Part shown: one piece after another, positions 28,166 through 64,000 of the stretch | Layout: the number at the start of each line of letters is the position of its first letter | Numbering within the stretch: position 1 is the stretch's first letter | Assembly (NCBI GenBank): GCA_030746555.1 | Contig: JASLMK010000013.1 | Span: 1-64,000 of the forward strand | DNA length: 64,000 nt | Source of the DNA: Planctomycetota bacterium | GTDB taxonomy: Bacteria > Planctomycetota > UBA1135 > GCA-002686595 | Direction of reading: 5' to 3' | Notes under the pieces: generated by a model | What the model was told of the DNA's origin: nothing | Database searches by the model: none | Seen by the model: the letters and a program-made list of their open reading frames with translations, nothing else | Translations under genes and position numbers: made by a program

Positions 28166-28482
28166 GAGTGGATCGGGCGGCATCCGGCCGGTCGCCGCCA
28201 CCTCCTCGGGATCCCTTGAGAGCCGGACCCCAGCGAGCGTGGCATCGACCGACAGCGTTTCGCTGGTGATATCGGACCCCAGCCTGGGGAAACCCGCCAT
28301 GGCCCATTTGGTGAATCCGATTCGTTGCCGTGATCGAGGTAGATCCGGGCTTCTAAATAAAAAGCAGGATCCTATGCGTGGGGCGGGCTCGCAGACCCCC
28401 TGGGAACCCCATGCGGGCCATTCGCGGGGGTTCCTCAAGGCCCCGGGCCCGACGGTCGACCTCAAGGATCGCGCCTGTGCCG
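28166..28482. other. Divergent intergenic region before the giant gene (317 bases)
   Basis: This lies between the minus-strand sulfatase-fold gene and the plus-strand giant gene. It contains an AT-rich patch at 28351-28363 (CTAAATAAAAAG), the most AT-rich stretch nearby, and a minus-strand TAGGAT hexamer at 28374-28369. That hexamer could start a transcript for the sulfatase-fold gene with a leader of about 200 bases. Both flanking frames extend open into it but show no protein-like conservation there. Confidence 0.45.
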
Positions 28483-31400
28483 ATGGAGATCCCGCCCCAC
28501 CCCTCCCGCCGCCCCGGCTCGCGGGCCAAGCCCCCCCCGCCGTGGGGGGCCGCGTTCGCGTGTGCCCTGTGGTTGGCTTGTGCCGCCCTCCCGCTGGGAG
28601 GTCGTCCGACGGTCCGCGAGCCGGGGCGGCTCCCGGTCAGCGTACGGGCCGCCGACGACCTCGAGGAGGTGCTGGCGGACTTGGATCACGTCGCCGAGAA
28701 GCGCTGGCGCCCGGCGGTGATTGCGCTCCACAGCATCGCCACCGAGGCCGCAGCCGGCGAGGACCCTCACCGGAGTCGGCGCATCGCGGCGGGCCTGATC
28801 GGGATGTTCGATCACCCCTCGCGGGCCGGAGACGGCGCGGTGGCCCATGCCTGTTGGGCCTTGGCCGCCCTGGGCGAGGCGGCGGTCGGGGCACTCGAGG
28901 AGGCATCGCGCGATCCGCGCCCGCGCGTCCGCTCGGGTGCGCTGCGCGCCCTCTCGCGGATCGATCACCCCCAGCGCCTGGCGATGCTGGGGCGCATGGC
29001 TCACGACCCGGACGGGCGAGTGCGGCGCGCGGCGCGCAAGGCCCTGAGTGTCTTGCCGCCGGAGGAGGTCGCCGAGTGTTCCGCGGTTCCGGCGCTCGTG
29101 CGCGATTCCGCCCTGGTGCGAATGGCGGTCGCCCGTGATCCGCGCACTCCCGCGCACGCCGCGCGCGCATGGGCGCAAGAGGGCATCGGGCTCAACGCCC
29201 TGGGGCTGGTTCTCTCGCCGACCGACCCCGAGGTCAACATCGTCTGGGAGTCCCTCGCCCACGACAGTGCGCTCGCCCGTCACCAGAGCCGGCGCGCCCT
29301 GATTGCGATCTACGGTGAAGGCGTCAGCGAGCCCGTCCTGGAAGCTCTCGACGAGGGAGCGTGGCAAGCGTGGCGTACCAACGGTTCCGCGCTGTTCGAC
29401 GAGGCCGCGCCCTTGGCCGCCCAGGAGTACGAGACCACTTCCGACATCGCGCGCTTGGGGCGCTCCCTCCTCACCAAGACCAGCGGCCTGGACCTGGTGG
29501 CGGGGACAGTCTGGCGCGGCCTGACGGGTCTCGAACGGATTGAGGACAACCTGCGCCAGACGAGGGAGCGGCATGAGCTCGACGCTGCCGTGCGCGAGGG
29601 CCGGGCCGCCGAGCTGGGGGAGGTTGCCGACTACGAGGGACTCCTCGGTGAGGTCGGCAGGTACTTCGAGCCGAGCCTCCTACCCAGTCTCTTCCGCGGG
29701 GAGTTCGGATCGACCGCTGCACCCGCCGGGGCGGTGGACGACGTCCTCGTGTTCACGCCGCAAGCCCGCATCGCCCAGGACTGGCACGTCTACGCCGGGT
29801 TCGGGGAGGGGCGCGGCCTGGTCGGCGCGGGGATCGAGTACCGGCCTTCGCCCACGGCGGGCAAGCGCATCCTCGTCTCGCGCGTGGCTCCCTTCGGCTC
29901 GGCGCCCACGCCTGCGCAAAGCGGCGGATTCGAACGCGCCTGGGACGTCTTCCTGCCCCTGGCCGAGGTCGGCGCCTTCTGGGCCAGCGGAGCCGGTGTC
30001 GTCGACGGCCTGTGGGCCTTCGCGGGCGTCGACGCCGCCAAGTCCGCGACCAACGCCCTCGAACGCGAACGCTACGGCGGTCTTCCGCGGCTCGCCCCGC
30101 CGCCGGGCGTCGATGCGAGCCGCCGCGGCAAGCTCGCCTCCGTGCTCGCCAGTCTCGCGGTCGGCGAGCGACGCGCCGTGATCGACGCCCTCGTCCCCGA
30201 CGAAGCGCAAGTGCAGCTTTGGCCCCTGGCCGCGGTCGCCTGGTACGACCGGGAGCGCATCGACACCACGCGCGCAGCATTCGTGGACATCCTCGGTGTG
30301 GATCCCTACGCCGGCGAAGACGCCGTCCACCCCGCCTGGGAGGTAACCCTCGCGGAGCTGGCCGAGGCGGGTCTGACGCCGCCCCAAGTGCGCGCGCGCC
30401 TGTTCTGGGAGAGCCCCGACTACCACGCCGAGCTCACCCGCACCGGCGACTGGGACGTGCTCGTCAACCGCGTGCACCTGCACTCCGAGACCGCGCCCGT
30501 GCGCACGTCGGCGATCTCGATCGACCGCCGGCTGGCGATGACCTTCCATCCCTTCGCCGACCTCTCTGGGGCGGAGGCCTCCTTCGCGCGGCGTCTGTTC
30601 GAGAACGCCGTCGGGACCGACCGGGTCTTCCCCAACACCTTCGGCGGCGTGACCCAGCACTTCGTGAACGAGCCCGGGGCGGCCGGCCGGAGGCAGGCGC
30701 GGCGCGTGCGGCTCGACGCCCTGGCGGCGGATGGAACGGGCCTGTCGGTCGTCGAGACGCCCGCCGGCCGCGAGCTGTGGTGGACTGCCCAGGGGCAGGA
30801 GCGTGCCGAGCTCGAGCGCTTCGTGATCGTCGCCGGTCTCATGGAGCGCATCGAGACCTTCCGCCGCGTGGAGGGGGAGGGGGGCGGCGAGAGCGGCTAC
30901 CGGCTCGTGGCACGCAGGGAGCGGGCGGGCCGGCGGACATCGTTCGAGTACGAGACCGCTCAGGGCAGTGGGCGTGCGATCGTCACCGAGCGCACCTTCG
31001 CCGCTCCCGCGCTCTTCGCGCCCGGAACGGAGGAGGGGGCGCTCCTCGCCCGGCGCGTGACGCACCTGCGGGACGCGGAGGCGCTCACCGTCGTCGAGGT
31101 CGACGCCGTCACACCGACCAACTCCGGGCGGGTGCTCCTCGCGGCGGCGGATGCGCGCGGGCGGCCGAGCGCGGCCTACCGGGGCATCGGACCCGAGCGG
31201 GCGGCGATCGACGGACCGCTGCCCGGGCGCCGCTTCCTCTACCTGCCGACGGAAGACGGAACCAAGCGGCAAGTGGAGGTGCGCCTGGACGGCGAGGGAC
31301 GCCTGACGGGGGTGAGGACCAACGACTTCGTCGGCGAGGAGATCTACACCCACGTCTGGAGCGACGCGTACGAACCCCAGGACGTCGGCCGCACCTACCT

Positions 31401-34400
31401 GGCTCTGGCTGAGGCGCCGGGGGAGCCGCGGGAGCGCTTCGACGGGCGAGTCACGGCCACCGACCGCCACGCCGGCGGCGTAGAACCGGAGGTGACTTTC
31501 GAGTACAGGCCGCTGACCGAACGCACGACTCTGGAGCGGGAGGGCCGCACGATGGAGGTCTCGGTGCCTTCGGGGACGCGGGAGGTGATCTCCACGCCCC
31601 GCCAGGGGGCCGCGGCGCGCAGCTCGGTCTCCAGCCTCAGCTTCGACCGCTCCTTCATGGAGGATGCGGGGCTGCGCGACCGCATCGGGCGCCTGTTGGG
31701 GGTTCCCGAACTCCTCGAGCCGCGCGATGGGTTCGATCGCTGGCGCATCGAGACGGTCTACGCCGAGGTCGTGCTCCTGCGTAGCGAACTCGGCCTCGAC
31801 CTCGACGGGGGCCAGGACGAGCGCATCTGGCGGGCCCTGGAGGCTGTGCGCAGGCCCGGCGACGAGCTGCTCGCGCTCCTGCCGCTCAGCGATGAGACGG
31901 CGGCGACCGCGCGGGTCAGCCTCTACTCCCGGCTCCTGCGCCAGATCCTCAAGACGGGCGAGGTCAAGCAGGGAGTCGGCCCACGGCTCTCGGAGAGCTG
32001 GTTGGAGGCGGTGGCCGAGGACCTGCACGAGGAGGCGGTCGCCGGAGTGGAGAGCTTGCCCGCGATCCTGGCCTTCCTCGGCGAGTTGGAGAGCCCCGAG
32101 CTCTTCGAACCCGACGGTGAGATCGACCTCGAGGAGCGCTCCCACGTGTTCGCCGTGCTGTCGTGGACGCGGTTCCTCTTGCGCACAGGTCACGACGGGC
32201 GCAATCGCCTGGTCGTGCGCGCCACGCCGACCGACCCGGAGACGATGGCGAGCATCCTCACGGCTGCGGGGGGCATCCGGCGCCGCTCCCGGGCGGAGTT
32301 CGGCGAGCGCTACCCCGAGGCGGAGACGGGGGTCGACGACCGGTCCCTGGCTCAGTTGCTGTTCTGGGCCGAGCGCTACGCCGCCGAGCCACAGCCGATG
32401 CCGCGCCTGGAGGACATCAAGCTGGCCAATCCTCTCGGCGCGCCGCGCGAGGTGCTGCGCGTCTCGCGGGAGGCCTTCGGACCCAACGCCGAGACCTTCG
32501 GCCGGACCCTCTCGGGCCTGGTCGCCTACGCGGAATTCTGGGACCTCCTCGAGGGCCGCGAGCAGCCGGTTGCCTACGCCACCTTCCTGGAGGAGGCCGC
32601 GCGCTGGACCGACATCCAGGAGCGCAAGGGGCACGAGGGCGAGAGCCTGCGAGCGCTGTTGGAGGAGACGCGCCTGCTCGCGGAAGCTCGGACACCGGCC
32701 GACGCGCTCGTCGCCCTCGAACGGACACGCTCCGACTACGACGCCTTCCGGATCCGGGCGTTCCTCTCCAAGGTGGCCGTCATCGGCGGTGGGAGCGCCC
32801 TGGCCATGGGGCTCTTGGCGCTCGTCTTGCGCCTCGCCGCGCCCAGGCGGGCCAAGACCCAGAAGCGGGCGGACCCGGAGGAATCTCCCGCCCTCGCCGG
32901 TGATGTGCGCGAGCCCACGCCGGGTGGAGAGATCCTGACCGCGCGCTGGTACCGCGAGCACGTCGCCTGGCTGGAGTCCCTGTTCTTCTTCCTGCCCTTC
33001 CTCGCCGTCGCTTTCGGCAACGGCAAGTTCGGTGCCGACGCCGCTCTCCTGGCGCTCGCCGCCTACCCGGGCTTGTTCCTGCTCGGGCACGCCTTGGCGC
33101 GGCTGGGCGGGAACCGCGCGATCCTGCACGCGCCGGTTCACGCACTGACCGCGGCCAAGGCGGGCGTGGCCGCCCTCGGGGCGCTCGTCGCCGCCGCGGG
33201 CTTCTCTCCGACCAACCCCTGGCTCGTGTGTGGCCTGACCGTCCTCGTGGCCGGAATCGCCGCCTGGCACGCCGCGATCCAGCGCCGGTGCGTGGCGGCG
33301 GACAACGCCGCGGCGGCGGAGACCCCCTCGGCCGCGGAGGTCGTCTCGGTCCCCGATCGCCCACCGACGACAGCCACCTTGGTAGCGGCGGCCGAAGCCT
33401 TGGCCGCCGCCGCCGGCCGCTTTGGCGCAGCGCAGCGCGCCTGCCTCTTCGCCCTCGAGTCCCTCCGCGCCGAGGGCGTCCGCTCGGCGGGCGCCGAGCG
33501 CCTGACCATCGTCGGCTGGCGCGGCGGCAACTACCTGTGGATGAGCCTGGGGCTGGCCATCGCCGCTTTCCAGGCCGGGGCGGCGTGGCGCTACGGGTTC
33601 ACCCCCGGCTACGGCCCGACGATCACGCTCCTGGGTGTGCTCTGCTTCCTGCAGGGAGCGCTGGGGCCGGTGCCGATCCGTCCCTCCCGTGCCGCCGAGG
33701 GCCGCGGTTTCTACGGCCTGCGGATGCTGCTGGACGCCTCGCCCCCTGGGCGCTGGTTGCGCCGCCGCCGCCAGCGTCGGGTGGTCGCGGATCTGAGGAC
33801 CGCCGCGGCCGAGCTGGAGAGCGACCTCGGCCGCATCCGAGCAGAGCACGGCATCCCCGTGGAGACTTGGGAGCGGCTCACCCGAATCTGGACCCAGGCG
33901 GCCTTCGGTGCGCCGGCGGAGGGCGTGCGCGTGGAAGTGACTCAGGTGAGTCTGCAAGCTCACCTCCGTCTCGTGCAGGACTGGCTGGAGTTTTTGGCGA
34001 CGTTCGAGGGCCGAAGCTACACGGCGTTCGCGCGCACCCACTACCCCTACTACGACCCGCAGTACCACGATCCGATCCTGTTCGTTTCGGGGCCGAGCTT
34101 CTGCGTACTCCGCCACGAGCAGCGAGATGGTCCGATCCTTCTACCGGGCGGTCCGCAGCACTGGCTGAAGCGCGGCTTCGAGCTGCCGGGCGAGGAGGAC
34201 GCCTCACGGTTCAACGGTCCGGCGGCCTATCGCCACGCCCTACACCCCGCGCCGCTCTTCAACCTGGTCTACTACGCCGACGCCGTCGCGGATCGGATGC
34301 GGGAGGTGGCCGACTTCATGGCCGGGCGCATCTACCCGGCCAACGTCGAGCGCTGCGTGCGCGAGTACCACCGGCGCTACCTGCGCGCGCGCGCCGGAGC

Positions 34401-37400
34401 GTCGGCCGTCGACGAGGACGCCTTCGTTGCGCAGGTCGCGGCCAGCCGCCGCCAGACGCAGCACGTGCGCGAGCACGTCGGGACGACGCCGGGCGAGATG
34501 GGCTTGGAGGAGGCGATGGCCGAAGAGGCCATCGACCGCCATGTGATGGTCAAGGAGGCGGTCAAGGCCCACAAGGGCCTGGGGGGCGCGGGGCCGACCA
34601 ACACCAGCTACGGCAAGACCGTGCGCGAGCACCGCTGGAACCTGCTCGCGTACTGGACGCTGGTGGGCTTGGGGGCGGTCGCCGTCGCCAGTCTGCGGCC
34701 GATCCTCGTCCGCGAGGGTCTGGTGAGCCACATCAACGGCCTCTCCCCCGGATTGCTCGGTTCCCTGCTCTCGGGTGGGATGGTCGTCTTCGTCAGCTTC
34801 TACGCGTTCCTGAGCGCCTTGATGGCGCTCAAGATCGTCTTGTTCTTCCGCGGCCAGCCCGTGGTGCGCTACCTGTCCGGCGACGGCCGCGCCGTCGTGG
34901 CCTGCAACCGCTTGATCGGCGTGGCCCTGGGTATCGCCCTGACGCGCGCCGCCCTGGAGCTCGTCTGGTTGTTGTCTCCGTTGCTGGGATGGGCCGTGAT
35001 CGTAGTCGCCGTGCCGCTCGTCCTGGTCGGAGTCGTCCTGCTCGGGCGCGGCCTCTTCGGGGTCGCGCACTCCGAGGAGCTCACCGACGAGCACTTCGCC
35101 CGCTTCGTGCCCGGACACCTGTTGGCGGAGGCCCTCTCCGACGAGCGTGATGGCCTTCGACGCGAGGAGCTGGCGAGCCTCGGCCTGAGGGTGGACCAGA
35201 TCAACGAGCACAACGCGGCGGAGATCTGGCGGGAGCTCGCCGGCCGGTATGCGACCCTGCGCTCGCGCCTGCTCCGTATCCTGCGCGGAGAGCGGCCGTC
35301 TCAGTGGCCCCTGGCGCGCCTGCGCCAGAACCACCGGCTCGGACTGGGCAAGATCGTCTATCTCGTGAACGTCCAGGGAACCGGTCGCCTGCGCCTGATC
35401 GAGGCTCTGCTCGGCAAGCTCGACGGCGAGAGCGGCGAACTGCGAGAGCGATCGGCTGAGATGCGCGAGTGGATGCCTCCCGAGCGTCTCGCAGCCCTCC
35501 GAGAGGAGCACGCGGCCCTCACATCGGCCCTCGCCGAGGCGGGAGAGGATCCCGTGGCCCGCGGGCGCGTGAGCTTCGAGCACGCCGCGGCGCTGGGCCG
35601 TTTCCAGAACGACGACCTGCTCTGTGGGCTGTCGATAGCGGACGTGGCGCGCTTGCGCGACTACGAATCGGTCTGGTCGGAGATCGTCTTGATGCAGACC
35701 GTGTTCGGGCGTTCCGCAGAAGAGCGCCTGTTCACCCTGCTCGAGAGCGCGATGGAGAAGTGGCCGAACATCGGCGTCGTGCCGGTATTCGACGACAACG
35801 ACACCAATCCCGATCTCGAGGATGCGCGCGGGCTGGACGCCGTCATGGAGTCCTTGCGGAGCGGGCGGCTCGCCCAGCACGCAGGCCGCATCCTGATCAG
35901 CAAGCACGCCTTCCACGGCACCAACCTCGGCTCGTCGACCCTCGAAGGCCACTCAGCGGGGCGACTTGCCTTGCGCATGGGGGGCGGGCTCGCCGGTGCA
36001 GCGGTCGCCGCGGTGTGGGTGGCGCCCGCCCTGCCCGTGGTCGGCTCCGTGCTGGCGGTGCTGGGCGTCCTCTGCGCTTGCTCCGCTTTCGGCTCTGGCG
36101 GCCCCAACCAGGCCAAGCAGCGGCAGAAGCCGTTCATGAACTCCGAGGCCGTTTTCCGTGTCGGCTACCGCTTCGAGCGCTTCCTGCGCCGCCTGCCCTC
36201 GTTCCTGCTGCTCGTGGACATGGAGGACCGGCTCCTGCCCGAGTTGTTCGACGCGAAGATGGCGATCTGGGCCATGCGCGAGCGCACGGCGAACGAGTGT
36301 CTGGCCCTCTCAAACCAGGAGAAGCCCGCGCCCGAGCTGCGGGAGGACTCCAGGCGCTGGAGGATCGACCTCGACCGCGTCGCTTTGGAGTGGGAGTACG
36401 AACGGGTCCTGCGGGAGCTCACTGCACAGGGTGCGGTCGGTGCCATGGAGGAGCCTGAGCGCGAGGACGTCTCGCGCACCCGCTTCGAGGGGGCGGGGCG
36501 TCCGGCGCTGGTCCGCGCCCTGGAGTTGGTGGAGCCCGATCGTGCCCGATTCGAGGCCATCGGGACGCCGCCCCGAGCCGAGAGCGAGCGGGCGTTGCTG
36601 CGTGCGGGGAAGTTCCCCGAGGCTGAACGGGCACGGCTCTCCTCGGTCGCCGCATTCGCCGGGTTCACCGCCGCCCAGCGGGTGCGCTACCAGCTGTGGG
36701 CCTTCCTCGAGGTCTTCCCCGACGCCGAGGAGTTCGTGCGCGCCGTGTTCCGTACGCGCAACCTGCCGGACGTCATCCAGACCGAGCTGCGCATGGTCCC
36801 GGCGAACCAGATCGACGGCAGCCTGAGCCCGCTCTTCCACCAGGACTACCTGACCTGGCATTCGACGATCCAGCCCGGCCAGGCGGCCTCGGGGTTCTTG
36901 TTCCTTGGCGGGACGGGGAACACCTTCCGCTGGGAGATGCTCGGCGGCGACCAGGCCCATCCCTACACGCGCCTGGCGCGCATGCTGTGGCCCTTGCGCG
37001 AGCGGATCCGCGAGGAGGAGTGCGCTCGCCCGCGCGGCGCGGTGCTCTCCAACCTGTCGAGAGCGACCCTCTCCGAGAAGGAGTGCCGCATCGACCGGCC
37101 GTCCTTGACCTTCAGGCGCCTGTTGAACGTGCACCAACCCACGGGCGTCTGGGACCTCTACAACGTGATCGAGGACTCCGAGCGAGGCCGGCGCGGCTCT
37201 CTGTTCCGCCTCAAGCAGACGCGCCTGGTGGGCAGCTTCACCCAGGTGATGGAGGACATCGGCCCGCGCCTGGGACCCAAGTGGGTGAACCAGCGCCAGC
37301 GCTGGATCATCCTCCAGAACTTCGCGGCGATCCTGCGCTTCCTGCCCATCGCCTGGATGTTCGGCGGCCAATACCTTGGTGCCGGCCTGGGCTACAGCCT

Positions 37401-40400
37401 GCTCGGTGACGTACAGCACGTCGGCCAGGGCGTGGCGGGCCTGCTGGCCGGTCTCCTGGCCGGCGGCGCGCTGGGGTATGGCGCCGGACGAGTCGTGTTC
37501 CGCTGGGCGAGTCGCTCCGGGTTGATCCCCAACGCCCAGTTCCACGTCGATCCGATCGACAGCCTCGGGGGCGCCAGGGGGCCAGGCCCTCTGCGCTGGC
37601 TGGGCAACCGACTGCGCGGCGACTACCGCCTGCAGCAGATCGCCCACCTGGCCGCGGGCACGCCCTCGATGCTCGTCTCCTCGGTGATCTTCATCCTCTC
37701 GCTGGCCTACTTCGCGAGCTGGTTGGATCCGTCGCGCTGGGAGGCCGTGCAGCCCTACTACTCCCCGGAGTTCCGGGTGTTCCTGCGCGACGTCGCGGTC
37801 TTCTTCCAGACCTACGTCCCCGTCCTGCAGGGCTGGGTCCCGGCGACCTTCGCCGGGCTGGTCATCTTCGTCTACCCACCTCTGACGTTGTGGGTGATGA
37901 ACCTGACCGTGACGGTCTGGAAGTCCTGGCAGGACGAGGAGTCGGTGCGAGAGTGCATCAAGTGCCGCTTCTCCGACGCGAAGTACTCCACTCTGCTCTC
38001 CCTGTGTACCGAGGGCGAGGCCGGCGGCGAGGACGGCGCGCTCGCCGCAGAGCGCAAGCGCCTGGAGGGCCTCGACCGCAACCGAGCGGAGGAGGAGCGC
38101 CTCGCGCTCTGCTACCGCGTCGAGGACGCCCTCGACAGCGCGCGCGACGAGTTCGACCCCGAGCGCGTCGATGCCGGCGACCTCGACCGCCGCGGGCGGG
38201 CGCGGGAGGTCGATCCCGACGCCCTCTACCTCGATCCGGCGCGCCTCGACAGGGCGGTCTCGACCCTCGAGCAGGTCTCGGGGCGCGGCGGGGAGTTGGA
38301 GGCACTGCTCACCACACGCATCAGCGACGGCGAGTCCGTCCCGTGCCATGAGTACGTCCCGCGCCACGCCCTGTCGCTCGTGCGCCGCGAGACCGCCGCC
38401 CTGCGCGACGCCTCCGACGGCGCCTTGCGCGTAGGCGGCGTCATGGGGACGGTGGGGCTCGTCGTCGGCGTCCTCGTGGCGGCCCTGTGGTGGTTCGGCT
38501 GGGTCGGGCTGCGCCCCGCCGCCGCGGCGTTCACCATCGGGGGCCTGCTGTTCACGGCCCACCTTCTTCGCCTGCGGATCGTGACCTCGACCCTCGTGCG
38601 CCACGGGATAGCGACCTCGCTGTTGTCTCCGGGGATGCTGGTCTACTTCCCGTTCCTCCACGCGCCCGCCTGGCGCGCGCTGGGGATGGCCCTACGGCGC
38701 TTCGAGAACGAGTCCTACTGGACGCGCGGACGAGACGAACACCTCAACCTGGCCCGTGTGGGATCCTGGTGGTCGCGAGCGCGCTTCGAGGTGACCGACT
38801 TCCTGGTGCGCTTCACGAAGCCGACGACGGTGTTCCTGATCGCACCTGTCCTGGGCGTCTTGATCCTGGTCCCATTCCACGCCCGCAAGGTCGAGCTGCG
38901 CCGAGACCTCGCGCGCCACGGGCTCGAGTCGTACATGCTCAGCGTGCGCTCGGGTGAGATCGCCGCGCTGCCCGGAGTCTGGGAGGCACTCGTCTACGAC
39001 GACTTCCGCGAAGGTCGAGAGATGAGCGGTCGTCTGCTCGGACTGCTGGCCGACATCACCACCATCCAAGAGGCCGCGCGCTTCGACGAGAGCCGCCTGG
39101 TGGAGGGCCAGGCGCTGTTGGAGCTCGCCGTGCGTGGCTCCGAGCAGGTCCGCAAGGGCCTGCTGGCCGACATTGCCGCGGGCCGCGTCCCCGAGGCGGA
39201 GGCGGCGGCGCGCTATGAGTACCTGGCCAAGGGCTTCGAGCGGTGGCTCGGCTCCATCGGCCGGCAAGACCTGTTCGCTCAGGCCTTCGGCGTGGCGTAC
39301 ACCCCGCTGGACGTGGAGCTCTGGGAGGTCGAGGCCAATGCCTCGATCAGCGGGCGTGACGGAGCCAGCGGGCGGCTTCGGGTTCGGATCGGGGCCGCAG
39401 GCGGCGCGGAGAAGCTGGACGACGGACCGGCGCTGCTGCGCTTCGACGTGCCCGAGGGCGTGGTCTCGATGGAGGAGCGCGTCTTCCTCTTCGAGGTGGG
39501 TGTGATCTCCGGCGTTCCCGATGGGCACTGGGTCCAGGCCGCCACCCGGAGCACCCGCAGTGTGCGTGCGGACCTGAGCCCCTCCGAGGTCCTCGAGCCC
39601 CACCGCGTGAAGACCGTCTACGAGCAACCGGGGCGCTCGGAGGTGTTCCAGTCCGCCGCCGACCACTTTGATCCCGGGAACGTGTACGCGTTCGAGGTGT
39701 ACGTGAAGGGACCGGCCGCGGCCTACGCGGACTTCGAGCTGGGAGTCAACGCACCGCGGACGCGAGGTCTGGTCGACCTGCACCGGCCCCTCGCGCCCGA
39801 CGCCCTCGCCGTCGCCCTGCGCGAGCCCCCTGAAGGCTTGGATTGGTCCATGCCCGAGCACGAGGAGCGAGCGCCGACCGGCGCGCGCCCGAACCGTCAC
39901 CTCCTTTCCGCTCGAGGGGGCCCTGAGGCGGGCACGGCCCTGCGGTCGGGCTGGACTCCCACGACGGACCCGGACCTGGCCAATCGTGCCGCCTTGCGCG
40001 TGATCGAGCGTGGCGGAGCGCACCACATCGACGTCGAGTTTGACGCGGACAAGCGCAGCGCCGAGGCCACCTTCGACCTCAGCCGCCTCTCGGGCGAGGA
40101 CCTGATCGACCTGCGCGGGCAGGTCCTGCGTGCAGTCGTGGAGGTGCCGCGAGATGCGCCGGGAGGCGGAGAGCACGCGCTGGTCGTGCAGGCAGTCGTC
40201 AAGCTCGGCGAGGCCTATCGTGAGCTCTACACCGGATTCAAGGCGCCGCGGGGCGGCGGGGTCTTGCACCTGGCGATGCCGATCGACGAGCTCACCTGGG
40301 AGCGGGTCGGCTTGGAGGTCGAGGATCGCGTCGTGGGCGCCGACCCCTTGGCGCGCCGGGAGGACCGTGCACGCGCCGTGAGCATCCGGATCGTCGCCCC

Positions 40401-41409
40401 GTCCGACGGCGGCTACTACGCAGGCACGTTCGTCTTGCGCGAGGTGCGCATCGACCCGATCGAGCCCACGGCACCGATCGGGGGCGCGAGCTTCACGGCG
40501 TCCTGCGGCGTCAACCTGATCGACGGGAAGTTCGGCTACCGCATCGGCAACTTGGCCGACCCCGACGCGGGGTACAGCCAGAACCTGGACTGGTTGGAGA
40601 GCGAGCTGGCAGGGGTCGCGGCCTGCGGGATGAAGCTCGTCCGCGTCCCGTTGTTCGCCGATCTGCGCGGTGACGTCGTCCGCCGGGGCGGTCGCGGCAG
40701 TCGGCGTGTGCGCGCCTTCGCCGACGAGGGCGGCGCTCGTTGGCGGGCCGATCTGCGGGCCTTGTTCGACACGGCCCACGACCACGGCCTGCGCGTGATT
40801 CCTGTCCTGTTCGGCTTCGAGCTCGGCGATGGAGTCGTCGACGATTGGGGAACCGGGGAGTGGCCAAGCGACATCACCGATCCCCTCGCCCGCCAGGCGT
40901 TGTTGGACGTCGTCGTGGCGCAGGTCGTGGCCGAGTTCGGCACGCACCCGGCTATCGAGGCCTGGGACGTGTTCAATGAGCCGGAGAACGCGACGGCGAT
41001 TCCGATCGCGGACCTCCAGGAATTCGTGCGCGAGGCCGCCGCGCGCATCCACCGGCTGACCGGTAGTGCGGCGCGTGTGACCCTGGGCGCGAAGACGTTC
41101 ACCAGCAACCTCGAGTACTGGCAGGGCCTCGGCCTCGACCTCTATCAGTTCCACTCCTACGAGAAGGACCGCGTCACCGATCCCCTCGATCTGTCGCCCG
41201 GTCGCTTCCGTCTCGACGCCCCGGTCCTGTTGGGCGAGGCGGAGCCCGAGTCCATCGGCGAGTCCCTCGCCGCCGCCCGCACCGCCGGTCTGTCGGGTGT
41301 GCTCTTGTGGACCGACGCCCACCTCGGCGGGTCCTACGAACTCACGGAGGCCGAGCGCGGGCAGTTCCGGAGTGAGGTCGCCGACCTCAGCGCCGGGGAC
41401 TCCCGCTGA
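28483..41409 (+). CDS. Giant membrane protein: HEAT-like repeats, GT2-type synthase core, C-terminal glycoside hydrolase (4,308 aa)
   Basis: This is one uninterrupted frame of 12.9 kb. In order it holds a signal or anchor helix (about 20-40), HEAT-like repeats (40-290), a long soluble part of unknown fold (290-1425), and about 20 predicted helices in clusters between 1429 and 3468. Within these lies a GT-A-like region (2287-2945) with the family-2 landmarks: DMED at 2579-2582, LGGTGNTFRW from 2808, IED at 2896-2898 and QRQRW at 2937-2941. These are the D-x-D, acceptor-loop, TED and QxxRW elements of processive glycan synthases. Beta-sandwich sequence (3480-4000) and a TIM barrel (4000-4308) follow, with VFNEPEN (Glu4166) and LLGEAE (Glu4252) as likely acid/base and nucleophile. 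It may make, export and trim a polysaccharide. The start is chosen at 28483 because earlier ATGs add only a low-complexity Arg-rich leader. Confidence 0.72.
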   Translation: MEIPPHPSRRPGSRAKPPPPWGAAFACALWLACAALPLGGRPTVREPGRLPVSVRAADDLEEVLADLDHVAEKRWRPAVIALHSIATEAAAGEDPHRSRRIAAGLIGMFDHPSRAGDGAVAHACWALAALGEAAVGALEEASRDPRPRVRSGALRALSRIDHPQRLAMLGRMAHDPDGRVRRAARKALSVLPPEEVAECSAVPALVRDSALVRMAVARDPRTPAHAARAWAQEGIGLNALGLVLSPTDPEVNIVWESLAHDSALARHQSRRALIAIYGEGVSEPVLEALDEGAWQAWRTNGSALFDEAAPLAAQEYETTSDIARLGRSLLTKTSGLDLVAGTVWRGLTGLERIEDNLRQTRERHELDAAVREGRAAELGEVADYEGLLGEVGRYFEPSLLPSLFRGEFGSTAAPAGAVDDVLVFTPQARIAQDWHVYAGFGEGRGLVGAGIEYRPSPTAGKRILVSRVAPFGSAPTPAQSGGFERAWDVFLPLAEVGAFWASGAGVVDGLWAFAGVDAAKSATNALERERYGGLPRLAPPPGVDASRRGKLASVLASLAVGERRAVIDALVPDEAQVQLWPLAAVAWYDRERIDTTRAAFVDILGVDPYAGEDAVHPAWEVTLAELAEAGLTPPQVRARLFWESPDYHAELTRTGDWDVLVNRVHLHSETAPVRTSAISIDRRLAMTFHPFADLSGAEASFARRLFENAVGTDRVFPNTFGGVTQHFVNEPGAAGRRQARRVRLDALAADGTGLSVVETPAGRELWWTAQGQERAELERFVIVAGLMERIETFRRVEGEGGGESGYRLVARRERAGRRTSFEYETAQGSGRAIVTERTFAAPALFAPGTEEGALLARRVTHLRDAEALTVVEVDAVTPTNSGRVLLAAADARGRPSAAYRGIGPERAAIDGPLPGRRFLYLPTEDGTKRQVEVRLDGEGRLTGVRTNDFVGEEIYTHVWSDAYEPQDVGRTYLALAEAPGEPRERFDGRVTATDRHAGGVEPEVTFEYRPLTERTTLEREGRTMEVSVPSGTREVISTPRQGAAARSSVSSLSFDRSFMEDAGLRDRIGRLLGVPELLEPRDGFDRWRIETVYAEVVLLRSELGLDLDGGQDERIWRALEAVRRPGDELLALLPLSDETAATARVSLYSRLLRQILKTGEVKQGVGPRLSESWLEAVAEDLHEEAVAGVESLPAILAFLGELESPELFEPDGEIDLEERSHVFAVLSWTRFLLRTGHDGRNRLVVRATPTDPETMASILTAAGGIRRRSRAEFGERYPEAETGVDDRSLAQLLFWAERYAAEPQPMPRLEDIKLANPLGAPREVLRVSREAFGPNAETFGRTLSGLVAYAEFWDLLEGREQPVAYATFLEEAARWTDIQERKGHEGESLRALLEETRLLAEARTPADALVALERTRSDYDAFRIRAFLSKVAVIGGGSALAMGLLALVLRLAAPRRAKTQKRADPEESPALAGDVREPTPGGEILTARWYREHVAWLESLFFFLPFLAVAFGNGKFGADAALLALAAYPGLFLLGHALARLGGNRAILHAPVHALTAAKAGVAALGALVAAAGFSPTNPWLVCGLTVLVAGIAAWHAAIQRRCVAADNAAAAETPSAAEVVSVPDRPPTTATLVAAAEALAAAAGRFGAAQRACLFALESLRAEGVRSAGAERLTIVGWRGGNYLWMSLGLAIAAFQAGAAWRYGFTPGYGPTITLLGVLCFLQGALGPVPIRPSRAAEGRGFYGLRMLLDASPPGRWLRRRRQRRVVADLRTAAAELESDLGRIRAEHGIPVETWERLTRIWTQAAFGAPAEGVRVEVTQVSLQAHLRLVQDWLEFLATFEGRSYTAFARTHYPYYDPQYHDPILFVSGPSFCVLRHEQRDGPILLPGGPQHWLKRGFELPGEEDASRFNGPAAYRHALHPAPLFNLVYYADAVADRMREVADFMAGRIYPANVERCVREYHRRYLRARAGASAVDEDAFVAQVAASRRQTQHVREHVGTTPGEMGLEEAMAEEAIDRHVMVKEAVKAHKGLGGAGPTNTSYGKTVREHRWNLLAYWTLVGLGAVAVASLRPILVREGLVSHINGLSPGLLGSLLSGGMVVFVSFYAFLSALMALKIVLFFRGQPVVRYLSGDGRAVVACNRLIGVALGIALTRAALELVWLLSPLLGWAVIVVAVPLVLVGVVLLGRGLFGVAHSEELTDEHFARFVPGHLLAEALSDERDGLRREELASLGLRVDQINEHNAAEIWRELAGRYATLRSRLLRILRGERPSQWPLARLRQNHRLGLGKIVYLVNVQGTGRLRLIEALLGKLDGESGELRERSAEMREWMPPERLAALREEHAALTSALAEAGEDPVARGRVSFEHAAALGRFQNDDLLCGLSIADVARLRDYESVWSEIVLMQTVFGRSAEERLFTLLESAMEKWPNIGVVPVFDDNDTNPDLEDARGLDAVMESLRSGRLAQHAGRILISKHAFHGTNLGSSTLEGHSAGRLALRMGGGLAGAAVAAVWVAPALPVVGSVLAVLGVLCACSAFGSGGPNQAKQRQKPFMNSEAVFRVGYRFERFLRRLPSFLLLVDMEDRLLPELFDAKMAIWAMRERTANECLALSNQEKPAPELREDSRRWRIDLDRVALEWEYERVLRELTAQGAVGAMEEPEREDVSRTRFEGAGRPALVRALELVEPDRARFEAIGTPPRAESERALLRAGKFPEAERARLSSVAAFAGFTAAQRVRYQLWAFLEVFPDAEEFVRAVFRTRNLPDVIQTELRMVPANQIDGSLSPLFHQDYLTWHSTIQPGQAASGFLFLGGTGNTFRWEMLGGDQAHPYTRLARMLWPLRERIREEECARPRGAVLSNLSRATLSEKECRIDRPSLTFRRLLNVHQPTGVWDLYNVIEDSERGRRGSLFRLKQTRLVGSFTQVMEDIGPRLGPKWVNQRQRWIILQNFAAILRFLPIAWMFGGQYLGAGLGYSLLGDVQHVGQGVAGLLAGLLAGGALGYGAGRVVFRWASRSGLIPNAQFHVDPIDSLGGARGPGPLRWLGNRLRGDYRLQQIAHLAAGTPSMLVSSVIFILSLAYFASWLDPSRWEAVQPYYSPEFRVFLRDVAVFFQTYVPVLQGWVPATFAGLVIFVYPPLTLWVMNLTVTVWKSWQDEESVRECIKCRFSDAKYSTLLSLCTEGEAGGEDGALAAERKRLEGLDRNRAEEERLALCYRVEDALDSARDEFDPERVDAGDLDRRGRAREVDPDALYLDPARLDRAVSTLEQVSGRGGELEALLTTRISDGESVPCHEYVPRHALSLVRRETAALRDASDGALRVGGVMGTVGLVVGVLVAALWWFGWVGLRPAAAAFTIGGLLFTAHLLRLRIVTSTLVRHGIATSLLSPGMLVYFPFLHAPAWRALGMALRRFENESYWTRGRDEHLNLARVGSWWSRARFEVTDFLVRFTKPTTVFLIAPVLGVLILVPFHARKVELRRDLARHGLESYMLSVRSGEIAALPGVWEALVYDDFREGREMSGRLLGLLADITTIQEAARFDESRLVEGQALLELAVRGSEQVRKGLLADIAAGRVPEAEAAARYEYLAKGFERWLGSIGRQDLFAQAFGVAYTPLDVELWEVEANASISGRDGASGRLRVRIGAAGGAEKLDDGPALLRFDVPEGVVSMEERVFLFEVGVISGVPDGHWVQAATRSTRSVRADLSPSEVLEPHRVKTVYEQPGRSEVFQSAADHFDPGNVYAFEVYVKGPAAAYADFELGVNAPRTRGLVDLHRPLAPDALAVALREPPEGLDWSMPEHEERAPTGARPNRHLLSARGGPEAGTALRSGWTPTTDPDLANRAALRVIERGGAHHIDVEFDADKRSAEATFDLSRLSGEDLIDLRGQVLRAVVEVPRDAPGGGEHALVVQAVVKLGEAYRELYTGFKAPRGGGVLHLAMPIDELTWERVGLEVEDRVVGADPLARREDRARAVSIRIVAPSDGGYYAGTFVLREVRIDPIEPTAPIGGASFTASCGVNLIDGKFGYRIGNLADPDAGYSQNLDWLESELAGVAACGMKLVRVPLFADLRGDVVRRGGRGSRRVRAFADEGGARWRADLRALFDTAHDHGLRVIPVLFGFELGDGVVDDWGTGEWPSDITDPLARQALLDVVVAQVVAEFGTHPAIEAWDVFNEPENATAIPIADLQEFVREAAARIHRLTGSAARVTLGAKTFTSNLEYWQGLGLDLYQFHSYEKDRVTDPLDLSPGRFRLDAPVLLGEAEPESIGESLAAARTAGLSGVLLWTDAHLGGSYELTEAERGQFRSEVADLSAGDSR

Positions 41410-58904: not shown

Positions 58905-61478
58905 ATGGGAGAGCACTCCGTGGCCTTCACCCGCGCGCTCTGGTGCCTGCGGGTCACCGTCGCCTTGCAGTGCATCGCGGCGGCGCGGACGGCGTGGGTC
59001 ACCGGGAGCGCGGTGAACGGTTGGCTCTTCATGAGGGCGGGGGTCGCGCCGGACACAGCGAACCTCGTCGACAGGGTCGCGGCGAGCGCTCTGGCCGCGG
59101 CGGCCGTCTCCGTCCTGGTTCGACCATGGCGCGTGTTCCTGCTCATTCCAGCCGTCTGGATCGCCGCGATCATGGTCGCAACGCGCACGAACCCCGGCTC
59201 GGCCGTGGACTACCTCGCGCCCGCCGCCCACGCCGTCCGGCTGGCGGCACCCCTGGGCTTGATCGCTTGGCTCGCGCAGGGGGAGCGCGCCGCCCTGTCG
59301 CGCCAGGTCGGCGTGTGGATTCTCCTGGTAGGCAGCTCCGCTAGCTTCGCGGCCCACGGCCTGGAAGCCCTCAACCACCACGGGCAGTTCGTCGACCTGT
59401 TGATCGGCACCGCGCGGCGCTGGACGGTCTGGGATCTCTCCCAGTCGTCCGCCGAGAACGCGTTGGTCTGCATCGGCACGGCCGACCTGCTCCTCGCCGC
59501 GCTCCTGCTCGCGCGCCGCTGGCGCTGGGTCGCTGGTTGGATGGCGTTGTGGGGGCTCGTCACGGCGCTCTCGCGCATGACGGCGATGGGCGGGGGAGTG
59601 TGGTTCATGTCCGCCGAGCGCGCCGCCAATGCCGGCGTACCTCTGGCGCTATCCCTCGCTTGGTGGCAAGTTGTCCGCTCCCATGCGCCCAAGACGATGA
59701 CGATGCTCACCACCGCCCTGCTCGTCCTGTTCACCGCCGCGCCGCAAGACGAGCCCTGGACTGCCCTCGAAGGCACCGTTCCGGTCCAGTGGCGTGTGAT
59801 CTGGACCGAGGATCCGGCCCATCGCGCGACCGTCTCCTGGAGCACGCTGGAGGCGGGATCGGAGCACGTCGTCCACTTCGACGTCGTCTCGCGGGAGGGC
59901 ACAGATGAGCCCTACGCGATGACGCAGGCGGCCCAGCGCAACGGCGCCTACACCCTGCACGAGAACGAACGGGAGAAGGTCGCCGGCGCCTCGTACCACC
60001 ACGCCCGCATCGGAGGGTTGGAGCCGTCGACGACCTATTGGTTCCGACTCGAGAGCGACGGAGTGCGCTCACCGGAGCTGCACTTCGAAACGGCACCCGC
60101 CGAGGACCGACCCTTCCGCATGATCCACGGCGGCGACTCGCGCTCGGGCCACGAGGCGCGGCTGAAGATCAACACCTACATCTCGCTTCTGACAGACGAA
60201 CACCCCGACCTGATCGCCTTCGCCCACGGCGGCGACTACATCCTGTGGGGGGAGCTGTGGACCCACTGGCGGCCGTGGCTGAGCCACCACGAGGTTGCGA
60301 CCTCACCGTCGGGTCGCGTGCTTCCCTTGATCCCCGCCCGAGGGAACCACGATGTCGGGCCGCTCTTCGACGAGATCTTCGACGACCCCGGGGGCGCGAA
60401 GCTGAACTACTACGCGACGGACATCACTCCCCAGGTGTCGCTCGTCACGATCAACACCGAGATCAGCGCGGCCGGCGACCAGGCCGTGTGGCTGGAGGAC
60501 GAGCTCGCGCGCCTGCGGCCGCAGCGTCGTTGGCTCCTCGCCCAGTACCACCGGGCGATCTACCCGGCGGTGAAGGGTCCGGCGGACGCAAAGGCCCACT
60601 GGGTGCCGCTCTTCGAGGAGCACGACCTCGACGTCGCCCTGGAGTCCGACGGCCACGTCGCCAAGCGCACCGTACCCATCCGCGGCGAGGCGCACGACGA
60701 GAGCGGCGTCGTCTACATCGGCGAGGGCGGACTGGGCGTGCCCCAGCGCGTGCCGCGCTTCGACCAGTGGTTCCTGCAGGAGCCGGGCATGTGTGCGTCC
60801 GCGCACCACGTCGTGATGCTCGAGTTCGCCGAGGGTGTCCTGATCTCGCGCATCCTGGGTTTGCCCGAGTCCTACTCGCGCTCCTTCACGCCGCGCGACC
60901 ACGTCGAGATCGTCGGTCCGGAGACCTCCTGGCGCTACCTCGCCGGCGGCGACCCCGCCGGCGACGCCTGGCGCACGCCCGGCTTCGACGACTCGGATTG
61001 GCGGAGCGGAGCTGCCGGCATCGGCTTCGGGGGTGACGGAATCGTGACCGTGCTCGAGGACATGCGCGGTGCCTACAGCCGCGTGTACCTGAGGGCGCGC
61101 TTCGACCCCGCGTTGCTCGCGGACCTCGGCGAAGTGCGCCTGGCCGTGCGCTACGACGACGGCTTCGTCGCCTACCTCAACGGCGTAGAGGTGGCGCGGG
61201 GGTCGGTGGGGGCCGGCAGCGGGGCGGAGGCGACGGACGTCGAGGCGCACACCGCGCGCTCGTGGGAGCTGTTCTCACTCGGCTCGGGCGCCGAGCTCGT
61301 CCGGCAACTCGGCTCGGAGACGGCGGTGATCGCGATCGAAGGGCACAACAAGATCAAGAGCAGCAACGACTTCCACATCGAACCCTGCCTGATCGGCCCG
61401 CACCTCGAGCGGCCCCCCCTGGCCGACGAGACGGTCGTCCTCGACGAGCTCCGGCTCGTACCGAGGGACCTGCGCTGA
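58905..61478 (+). CDS. Membrane-anchored purple-acid-phosphatase-like metallophosphoesterase (857 aa)
   Basis: The N-terminal part (about 8-285) has roughly eight helices of an uncharacterised membrane domain. A fibronectin-like domain follows ([31 protein letters not shown]; about 300-400), as in purple acid phosphatases. The metallophosphoesterase core (about 400-660) shows the metal-ligand series: Asp411 in [16 protein letters not shown], Asn481-His482 in [15 protein letters not shown] and His584 in [12 protein letters not shown]-terminal jelly-roll ([17 protein letters not shown], then [12 protein letters not shown]) completes it. It likely hydrolyses phosphoesters outside the membrane. 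The last GHxH histidine is changed (HVAK), so specificity may differ. Confidence 0.78.
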
Positions 61479-61567
61479 GCTCGGGGAGCGCCTCCGCGGC
61501 CGGGCTCCGAGGGCGGGCGGGCGCGGAATACGGACCTCGGCCCGGGTGGAGTCGGCAGGCCGTCGGG

Positions 61568-61573
61568 TAGGCT
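61568..61573 (+). promoter_or_regulatory. -10-like hexamer TAGGCT before the CRTAC1-type gene
   Basis: TAGGCT ends 18 bases before the ATG at 61592. It is the same hexamer as at 26224-26229. Confidence 0.38.
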
Positions 61574-61591
61574 GCTCGCGGTGGATCGACG

Positions 61592-64000
61592 ATGGGTTCG
61601 CGACACGCAATCACCTGGCTGGTCCTTCTGGGCTGTGCGGCGGAGGAGGCCCCCTACCAGCAGGACATCCTTCTCGCCGACGGCGTGGCGCGACAGGTCG
61701 GGGCCGAGCTCCAGGCCAAGCTGCTCGAGCCCGCCGTGGCCGGTGACCTCGCCCTCGCCGCCGAGGCCCTCACGCCGGGATTCGAGGGGAGCTTCCCCAG
61801 GCTCGATGGGGGCCGAGCGGTGGTCAACGAGGGGCTCGACCTGCGCGTCTACGCCGCCGAAGACGCCGTGCCGCTGGACCGGGCCGGCCTGGTGGACGTG
61901 CTGGCCGAGCACGCAAAGGGCTGGGCGAGCGGCGATCGGCTGAGCTTCGACACCGACCGCTTCTTCCTCGATCTCGCCGGGGAGCACGCCCACGGCCGCG
62001 CCGAGGTGCGCCTGGGCGGAGCACGGGGGGACGGAGGGCGAGTGGATCTGCGGGTGGAGTGCGAGGTCGAGCTCGTGCACGACGAGGAGCACGGTTGGCG
62101 CATCGCGCTCCTCGAGGCGCACGAAGGAGCGCGCGCCGAGGGTGGCCCCCCTCCCTTCGTCGAGGTGACCGGCGCGGTCGGCTTCACCTTCAACGAGAGC
62201 GCGCGCAATCGCTCGATGATCCAGGAGGCCATTGACGAGCACCGCACCCTCGCCCTGGGAGGGCTCACCGCTCTGGACTGGAACCGCGACGGATTCTGGG
62301 ACCTCGTCGCCACGCGGCAGACCCAGGAGAGCGTCCTGTTCCTGAATGACGGCCACGGCGGATTCGTCCGCGGCGAGCTTCCCCTGGAGGCTCCCTTGGA
62401 GTGCTCGAACTTCCTCCTGTGGTTCGATCTCGACGGCGACGGTCTCGAGGAGCTCGTCGGAACGACCCCGCTGGAGTACGAGGGCGCCCACGCCCGACTG
62501 GGGCTGTGGACCCGGCGAGAGGGGAGTTGGGCGCGCGTGGAAGACGCGCTCGTGTTTCCCAACCCCGTCGGCCTGCGCCACATCGCGATCCCGACCTTGG
62601 TGCCGTTCGACGCGAACGGCGACGGGCTGATCGATTTGTTCGCCGGCGCCTACGGTGACGCCAACTCGCGCGGGGACGACTTCAACACGGTCCTGGCCCT
62701 CGACGGCGGGGACAATCATCTGTTCATCAACCAGGGTGATCTGCGCTTCAGCGAGGAGTCCGCGGAACGCGGCCTCAGCGGAACCCAGTACACCTTCGTG
62801 GCCCAGCCGTTCGACTTCGATGGCGACGGCGATCTCGATCTGTTCGAGGGCAATGACTTCGGCCCCAACGTCCTGTGGGAGAACGACGGTGAGGGTCGCT
62901 TCCGCGCCGATCACGAGTCGGTCCTCTCGGGCGAGTCCGCCTACACGATGGGCGCGACCTTGGCGGACCCCGACAACACCGGCGAGTGGAGCCTGTACAT
63001 CTCGAACATGTTCTCCGAGGCGGGGAATCGCATCGCATCCCTCGCCGCCGGGCTGAGCGACGACATGCGTTCGCGCATGTTGATCATCGCCAACGGCAAC
63101 ATGCTGTACTCGCGCGGGCCGGACGGTGAGTGGACCGAACAGGCGCGCGAGCTCCATTGCCACAACGGCGAGTGGGCCTGGGGAACGAACTACTGCGATC
63201 TGGACAACGACGGTGACAAGGACCTGATCGTCACCAACGGCTTCACCTCCCACTCCCAGCGCGAGCTCCCCGACTGGTGAACATGCTGGTGGCGGCAGGT
63301 TGCCGCCGACGCAGGCTTCTTGGAGAGGGGCGAGCCGACGCGCGACGTGAACGCGGATGTCGACATCGAGGGTTCGTTCAGCGGCTACCAGCGAGACCGG
63401 GTCTTCTACAACCCCGACGGCCCGGCCGAGCGGCGGTACTTCGAGGCCGGTTGGCTCTTCGGGCTCGATGGTGAGCACGATGGGCGCTGCACCGTGCCCG
63501 TGGATGTGGATGGCGACGGAGACCTGGATCTCGCGCTCTTGTCCTTGCAGGGGTTGCGCCTGTTCGAGAACCGAGCCGCGCCGGCGCGTTTCGCGCGCCT
63601 GCGGCTGATGAGCGGCCGGTCTTTCGCGGGGGCCTTGGGCGCGATCGTGCGCCTGACCGCCGCCGGCATGACCCACAGCGACCATGCCAAGGTGCTCGAC
63701 GGTTTCCAGAGCCAGGTACCCACCGATCTGCACTTCGGGCTCGGAGAGGCCGATGACGTGGAGCGCGTGCGCGTCGAGTGGCCCTCGGGCGCCGTCGAGG
63801 TCTGGGAGGACCTCCCCGCCGATCGCCTGATCGTGCTCACCGAGGGCGAGAGCGAGGCGCGGGTGGAGGAGCTGCCGCGCTGGCCGGGCGTCGCACGCGC
63901 GCGGCGGGAAGCGACGGCGGAGCAGGCGTGGGCGGCTTGGAGCCCCGATGACGATGGAGCGGCGGCCGCCGTCGTGCGCTGGGTGCGGGCCCCCAAGGCG
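61592..64000 (+). CDS. CRTAC1-type FG-GAP/ASPIC-UnbV selenoprotein, Sec563, cut by window edge
   Basis: The frame is open from the ATG at 61592 to the window end except for one TGA at 63278-63280. A lipoprotein-like signal (LLGCAA) and an N-terminal SnoaL-like domain (about 25-185) come first. FG-GAP calcium repeats follow: DWNRDGFWDL, DLDGDGLEEL, DANGDGLIDL, DFDGDGDLDL, DLDNDGDKDL. After the TGA the protein continues with TCWWRQVAADAG, another repeat (DVDGDGDLDL) and an ASPIC/UnbV domain (GALGAIVRLTAAG, FGLGEADDVERVRVEWPSG). Homology thus runs straight through the TGA, at the place where relatives have an FFWRQV-type segment. A SECIS-like hairpin follows with fdhF-like spacing, so I call Sec563, giving a U-T-C motif. 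The exported product runs off the right edge. Confidence 0.82.
63278..63307 (+). promoter_or_regulatory. Sec UGA codon and bacterial SECIS-like hairpin
   Basis: After the UGA at 63278-63280, bases 63291-63297 (GGCGGCA) pair perfectly with 63301-63307 (TGCCGCC) around a GGT loop. The loop begins 17 bases after the UGA, the same distance as in E. coli fdhF as I recall it, and starts with GG. Confidence 0.78.

Follow-up and report, generated by a model that had tools for sequence, protein, structure and literature searches.

A predicted selenocysteine codon in an FG-GAP/ASPIC propeller gene of a Planctomycetota bacterium and in its homologues from two bacterial phyla

The analysed stretch of DNA (the window) comprises positions 1–64,000 of the forward strand of contig JASLMK010000013.1 (assembly GCA_030746555.1, Planctomycetota bacterium, GCA-002686595). 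The genome to which it belongs (G000, with the window on contig C13) has a size of 4.0 Mb in 137 contigs and is 91% complete; a second genome of the same genus (G001) was used for comparison. At the end of the window an open reading frame of 562 amino acids (61592–63280) runs up to a TGA at codon 563, past which the same frame stays open until codon 1097. The terminal stop is likewise a TGA (contig positions 64880–64882), and the gene, which reaches contig position 64882 beyond the window, would encode 1096 amino acids with selenocysteine (Sec) at position 563. An earlier note on this DNA had described an FG-GAP/ASPIC frame broken by this TGA only, as is indeed the case. The features of the gene are compiled in Table 1. 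Its upstream neighbor (58905–61478) is metallophosphoesterase-like with N-terminal membrane helices, as judged by eye, and another ASPIC match without a stop in the matched stretch is located just beyond the window, about 2 kb past the gene end (contig positions 66822–67034). A 942-codon open frame on the minus strand (61172–64000) mirrors the selenoprotein gene and is probably no gene; antisense open frames are typical of GC-rich coding DNA. Farther upstream, the plus strand contains an open frame of 4350 codons with coding-like GC3 (28357–41406).

Table 1. Features of the predicted selenoprotein gene, in positions of the window.
Feature	Position	Strand	Remarks
FG-GAP/ASPIC selenoprotein gene (predicted), window part	61592..64000	+	single open frame if TGA563 is read
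N-terminus MGSRHAITWLVLLGC, lipoprotein-like signal, lipobox LLGC	61592..61636	+	by eye; orthologue similar: MGSRNAITILVLLGC
Best FG-GAP_3 stretch of the beta-propeller, residues 408-464	62813..62983	+	PF13517, E=1.9e-26; CRTAC1 fold match (9etn)
In-frame TGA, predicted selenocysteine codon 563	63278..63280	+	142 distinct sequences share TGA in this column
Cys565 of U-T-C, candidate for a local resolving thiol	63284..63286	+	Cys at U+2/U-1 absent from members with downstream CxxC
bSECIS-like hairpin GGCGGCA-GGT-TGCCGCC	63291..63307	+	loop begins 17 nt after TGA
UnbV_ASPIC domain, residues 681-747	63632..63832	+	PF07593, over curated cut-off
Start of thioredoxin-like region, no CxxC, then TPR repeats	63959..64000, continuing outside the window	+	position only

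The window protein matched the FG-GAP and UnbV_ASPIC families over the Pfam cut-offs and shares the fold of CRTAC1, and its LLGC sequence was read as a lipobox according to the general lipobox rule. A Pfam scan found TPR repeats in this protein and no redoxin or AhpC-TSA domain, with or without CxxC, after the ASPIC domain; an AhpC-TSA/Redoxin domain was found in this place in five of nine relatives scanned. The structure model, calculated with eight sequences, reached a mean pLDDT of 79 and a pTM of 0.87. In the model Sec (residue 383) lies at the start of a helix (382–399), and the loop preceding it is of low confidence (mean 47 for block 371–380, and 73 for 381–390). The reactive Cys or Sec residues of thiol enzymes are situated at helix N-termini.

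In the second assembly of the genus, the orthologue (record L055) carries an identical TGA at the same place, and homology is unbroken on both sides of it, in agreement with the earlier note. Comparison of the two orthologues (NG86) yielded dN/dS values of 0.063/0.608 upstream of the TGA (ratio about 0.10) and 0.095/0.696 for the next 219 codons after it (ratio about 0.14), with a ratio of 0.25 over all 533 downstream codons. These low values indicate that the part downstream of the TGA is constrained as protein, and selection thus continues past the in-frame UGA.

The earlier note had further proposed to search the genome for selA, selB, selC, and selD, and all four functions are encoded in G000. 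SelB was found on contig C128 (323.8 bits, cut-off 242.25), SelA on C108 (484 bits), SelD on C126 (327.9 bits), and a tRNA-Sec gene also on C126 (72.3 bits, gathering score 47), which ARAGORN classified as tRNA-SeC with anticodon tca. The SelD gene (L210, C126:434–1375) has its own in-frame TGA at CAGUAAK (motif ADCAGUAAK) and is located approximately 2.1 kb before the tRNA-Sec gene. Of 24 long frames with coding-like properties that were selected in the window, among them the antisense frame over the selenoprotein gene, 21 end in TGA. Since TGA ends most of these frames, UGA is an ordinary stop in this organism that would be recoded locally, without a general reassignment.

When the read-through protein was searched against 101 genomes (its own and those of relatives), many of the listed matches carried exactly one TGA, and alignment placed these codons in a single column. 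A 155-position profile was applied to 119 genomes spread over the Planctomycetota; among the 88 matches listed at E <= 6.8e-18, 77 contained a TGA and 11 did not, and none of the weaker matches listed in this sample had one. The WR-motif sequences from 173 loci comprised 111 distinct sequences, with U (n = 94), Q (n = 5), E, D, and C (n = 3 each), N (n = 2), or A (n = 1) in the Sec column, and more divergent subfamilies added 21 sequences with U and three Cys homologues. Because 23 of the compared regions were chosen among TGA-bearing matches, the ratios of U to other residues in the compared set are biased; the listing of the phylum sample is less so. TGA-bearing members also occurred in at least 21 of 149 sampled genomes of a second phylum, that of a Vicinamibacteraceae metagenome-assembled genome (G214, record L057), none of whose listed genomes recurs in the Planctomycetota lists. 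The Vicinamibacteraceae are a family of the Acidobacteriota. Of 36 distinct sequences compared from this phylum, 28 had U and 8 had A, S, G, Q, N, or D. The attribution to planctomycetes in the earlier note thus stands as far as the Planctomycetota are concerned, but is too narrow for the family. Altogether, 142 distinct Sec sequences from the two phyla have the TGA in one column. G000 encodes at least seven Sec members (on contigs C79, C100 (two), C137, C110, C78, and C13) and a further member with Asp (C85). In another genome, at least five TGA-bearing copies lie close together on one strand (G210:C253:28933–43865), which represents a tandem expansion.

The earlier note had suggested looking for Cys or TGA in this column among homologues: most relatives have TGA, and six homologues, all of them short forms, have Cys. 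Three of the latter are found in G104 and G193 (codon TGC) and the others include proteins from the SelA-bearing genomes G173 and G164. Long non-Sec homologues contain Q, D, E, N, A, S, or G in the Sec column, not Cys. The motif of the family is NGF...D[LTYW]U[ST]xxWR, with the variants DGUxC, DCU, and DLUxPF in one subgroup each. The U-T-C motif that had been put forward as the mark of a new family does not describe it, as the Cys-containing W-type U-T-C was limited to the window genus among the sequences compared, the usual form being D-x-U-[ST]-x-x-W-R. Ser following Sec is encoded by an AGY codon in 96 of the 100 members with Ser in this place. AGY as a UGA-A context signal was rejected because non-Sec members have the same bias (13 of 15), which thus probably reflects ancestry.

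The 7-bp hairpin with a GGT loop 17 bases past the TGA that had been noted before was recovered at the same place. According to section 5 of PMC13188914, bSECIS elements have a loop of 3–9 nt, a stem of 4–16 bp, a G in the first two loop bases, a spacing of 16–37 nt, and a folding energy of <= -7.5 kcal/mol. The window hairpin lies within these limits (spacing 17, loop GGT, 8 bp, -12.9 kcal/mol). Taken alone, it is a modest signal in GC-rich DNA: compared with dinucleotide shuffles it is weak and not significant (z -1.38; 18 of 200 shuffles of this 70% GC DNA fold equally well). Against 300 draws of synonymous recoding, however, it is prominent (p = 0.007). The case for recoding rests on comparative evidence rather than on this hairpin alone. 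Before the hairpin and CxxC counts were made, four spurious or other-subfamily alignments were dropped (L109 at position 300, L001, L003, and L148). Of 115 Sec members, 97 have a model hairpin of <= -7.5 kcal/mol, and in 71 of the 115 the hairpin is better than those of synonymous recodings at p<=0.05; the corresponding numbers for the 22 non-Sec members are 1 and 0. In subfamilies with other residues around Sec, 17 of 21 sequences reach <= -7.5 kcal/mol. For the US-type sequences (72, of which 66 are distinct), 45 cells had changed on both stem sides, which none of 500 shuffles reached (shuffles: 18.4), with G-U/C-G/A-U/U-A at the third base of an Arg codon as an example of compensatory change, and the covariation score was 0.287 versus 0.143 in shuffles. 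Two of the five covariation measures, double-changed pairs (3 versus 3.1) and pair types (9 versus 9.7), were not above shuffles in this group. When its register was slid by -3, 75.4% of positions remained paired versus 78.4% in the true register, and covariation was only 0.137. The window-type sequences (n = 12) showed 93.8% pairing and three double-changed pairs, a number that 22 of 500 shuffles attain; slid registers had at most 83.3% pairing and none with a double change. The hairpin, whose conservation the earlier note had left to be checked, therefore recurs across the family with compensatory changes.

SelA was detected over the cut-off in 84 of the 119 genomes of the phylum sample. It is present in 32 of the 33 genomes with a listed TGA member versus 52 of the 86 others (Fisher p=3e-5). 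The sole exception, G159, contains a SelA-like match under the cut-off (50.3 bits) and a tRNA-Sec match of 50.6 bits, which is just above the gathering score and near background matches of up to 48 bits elsewhere. For G104 and G193, whose homologues are Cys forms, no SelA match was found, and their best tRNA-Sec scores (43.4 and 42.3) are below the gathering score. In the second phylum SelA was searched in two groups of genomes: it exceeded the cut-off in 19 of the 21 genomes with listed TGA members (G298 has a fragment at a contig edge, G358 none) and in 3 of the seven genomes that have site-spanning matches at E <= 1.3e-38 and no listed TGA member, figures that cover these 28 of the 149 genomes.

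The occurrence of Sec also parallels that of a second, more distant motif. Among long members, a CxxC located 243–288 residues past the site is present in 99 of 108 with Sec versus 0 of 23 without (Fisher 1e-18), as called with a plain text pattern in residues 171–430 past the site rather than with a domain model, with duplicates and three truncated Sec members excluded. The clustered, uncleaned set gave the same picture (CxxC yes/no 53/7 for Sec versus 0/12 for non-Sec members, p 3e-9). These counts ignore ancestry and have few independent events behind them: on a quick tree of 134 long members, which carried a long-branch warning, the Sec state changed 5 times and CxxC 8 times, and of the independent pairs for the coupling 3 agreed, 0 opposed, and 1 was neutral (sign test p 0.25), a non-significant outcome that is due to too few independent events. 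None of the 99 Sec members with CxxC carries a Cys at U+2 or U-1. Among the 38 Sec members that lack CxxC, 16 do, including the window protein (U-T-C) and its orthologue. Neither CxxC nor a Cys at U-1/U+2 is present in four long Sec members, and 18 of the short Sec members have no Cys at U-1/U+2 either. As the adjoining Cys is confined to members without CxxC, the selenenylsulfide postulated in the earlier note is plausible for the window protein, but does not characterize the family as a whole.

On the tree, the window protein and its orthologue fall into a clade of 14. Sec and CxxC are both missing from the remaining 12, which show Q, N, E, or D in the column. With such a position and no Pfam redoxin domain, the window protein is a poor representative of the family. 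In the simplest, hypothetical reading, CxxC would have been lost first and Sec would then have decayed repeatedly, the window genus having kept Sec with a new local Cys. Ser475, Ala477, Ser597, and Glu600 are conserved to 97–99% in members with Sec and CxxC versus 29–71% in 24 members with neither Sec nor Cys in the column; since some calcium-site and ASPIC columns weaken in the latter members too, these four are only candidate active-site residues. The window protein has Gln at position 600.

Taken together, these results indicate that the TGA in the window almost certainly encodes selenocysteine. If it had arisen by a nonsense mutation or a sequencing error, so that an ordinary FG-GAP/ASPIC gene would appear as a pseudogene, the sense codons (Q, N, E, D) in this column of the nearest relatives outside the genus would be readily understood, but the same TGA would hardly recur in the orthologue of the second genome and in one column of 142 distinct sequences from two phyla, or be followed by a region under purifying selection; the probability of such a defect is practically negligible. 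Insertion of a different amino acid at UGA, or a general readthrough, would fit the residues of the long non-Sec homologues, among which Cys is missing, and is nevertheless highly improbable: SECIS-like hairpins track the TGA, SelA co-occurs with TGA members, Cys forms are found in genomes where no SelA was detected, and most of the frames selected in the window terminate with TGA. On these grounds a pseudogene or error, a code reassignment, and unspecific readthrough were rejected.

With Sec accepted, its role has to be considered. It might be a structural or a metal- or selenium-binding residue of an adhesion-like propeller. CRTAC1 and other FG-GAP/ASPIC proteins are not known to be enzymes, the fold accommodates many different residues at the Sec position, and some Sec members lack an obvious partner thiol, all of which would suit a non-catalytic residue. 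This possibility is nonetheless rather unlikely, because the CxxC of the fused domain is found only together with Sec, a Cys stands beside Sec only where CxxC is missing, and Sec occupies a helix N-terminus in the model. Sec is probably a redox residue, for which the fused CxxC or else a local Cys would act as the thiol partner. The explanation that as a whole appears very likely is a hairpin-directed, exported propeller selenoprotein with a redox-active Sec: SelB and tRNA-Sec would decode UGA563 under the direction of the hairpin that closely follows it, and the product, probably a lipoprotein, would be an exported calcium-type FG-GAP beta-propeller in which an insert of about 120 residues holds Sec, followed by the ASPIC domain, the thioredoxin-like region, and the TPR repeats. 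For the chemistry we infer that Sec, positioned in the model like the reactive residue of thiol enzymes, acts as a catalytic residue that would be oxidized by an extracytoplasmic substrate and, in most long members, reduced again by the CxxC in the attached thioredoxin-like domain. In the window protein, which has no CxxC, the Cys two residues off may form a selenenylsulfide with Sec that an external thioredoxin would resolve.

In a wider reading, toward which we lean only slightly, the family would represent unreported multi-copy, membrane-anchored calcium-propeller selenoenzymes of the Planctomycetota and Acidobacteriota. Sec and the CxxC in cis (or a substitute Cys) would form one redox center, in which Sec is hardly exchangeable for Cys and decays to arbitrary residues once the partner thiol is lost while the scaffold persists, and families of this kind could be a main reason why these bacteria keep selenocysteine. 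Genes of this kind look truncated or split when UGA is taken as a stop. If the reading is correct, a multi-copy and probably exported protein class gains a predicted active site, at least seven members in G000 alone would need selenium, and the role of bacterial ASPIC propellers could be examined in terms of redox chemistry. Searches based on Cys/Sec pairs would see the family poorly, and finding Sec by its Cys counterparts would miss the whole class. The authors of deep-Sep point out that their method may miss selenoproteins without Cys homologues, of which a single previous example is mentioned (PMC12013277).

The family is large, occurs in many bacteria of two phyla, and on the sequences and sources compared is apparently unreported. 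A catalogue published in 2026 (PMC13188914), which covers 119 families and subfamilies of prokaryotic selenoproteins, contains in its accessible text no FG-GAP, CRTAC, ASPIC, or propeller family and not the string Planctomycet, which agrees with the statement in the earlier note that no selenoprotein of this family was known; no selenoprotein model of NCBIfam release 20 matched the four sequences (three genes) scanned, and the protein thus falls into none of the listed families. Term matching in the accessible text of PMC12013277, PMC5029168, and PMC2398784 found no mention of FG-GAP, ASPIC, propeller, or Planctomycet. A literature search yielded no paper joining selenocysteine with FG-GAP and, among the 15 listed of 108 results, no relevant title for UnbV, CRTAC1, VCBS, or beta-propeller. 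Selenoproteins of two Porphyra-associated planctomycetes are treated in PMC4807772, whose candidate table is part of the supplement and may mention the family.

Among known systems, murine CRTAC1 (PDB 9etn) is the best solved match in Foldseek (E 8.7e-25, TM 0.67/0.72) and has the same order of an FG-GAP propeller followed by ASPIC. It differs in that the HMMER alignment covers residues 371–480 and 626–735 plus a weak stretch (398–473), with 145 residues here opposite 23 in CRTAC1, and the Sec-bearing segment thus has the appearance of an insertion some 120 residues long; moreover, CRTAC1 has no Sec, and the alignment included no thioredoxin or TPR part. With the SelB-dependent bacterial selenoproteins (PMC13188914, Table 1) the family shares the UGA, a bSECIS within the published limits, and SelA/B/C/D, whereas its long non-Sec forms are not Cys forms. 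The Prx-like and TlpA-like UxxC selenoproteins resemble it in the thioredoxin/AhpC-TSA-like domain found in most long members, but here Sec is predicted to lie outside the thioredoxin fold, in the propeller insert, and the thioredoxin domain keeps its CxxC as the presumed partner.
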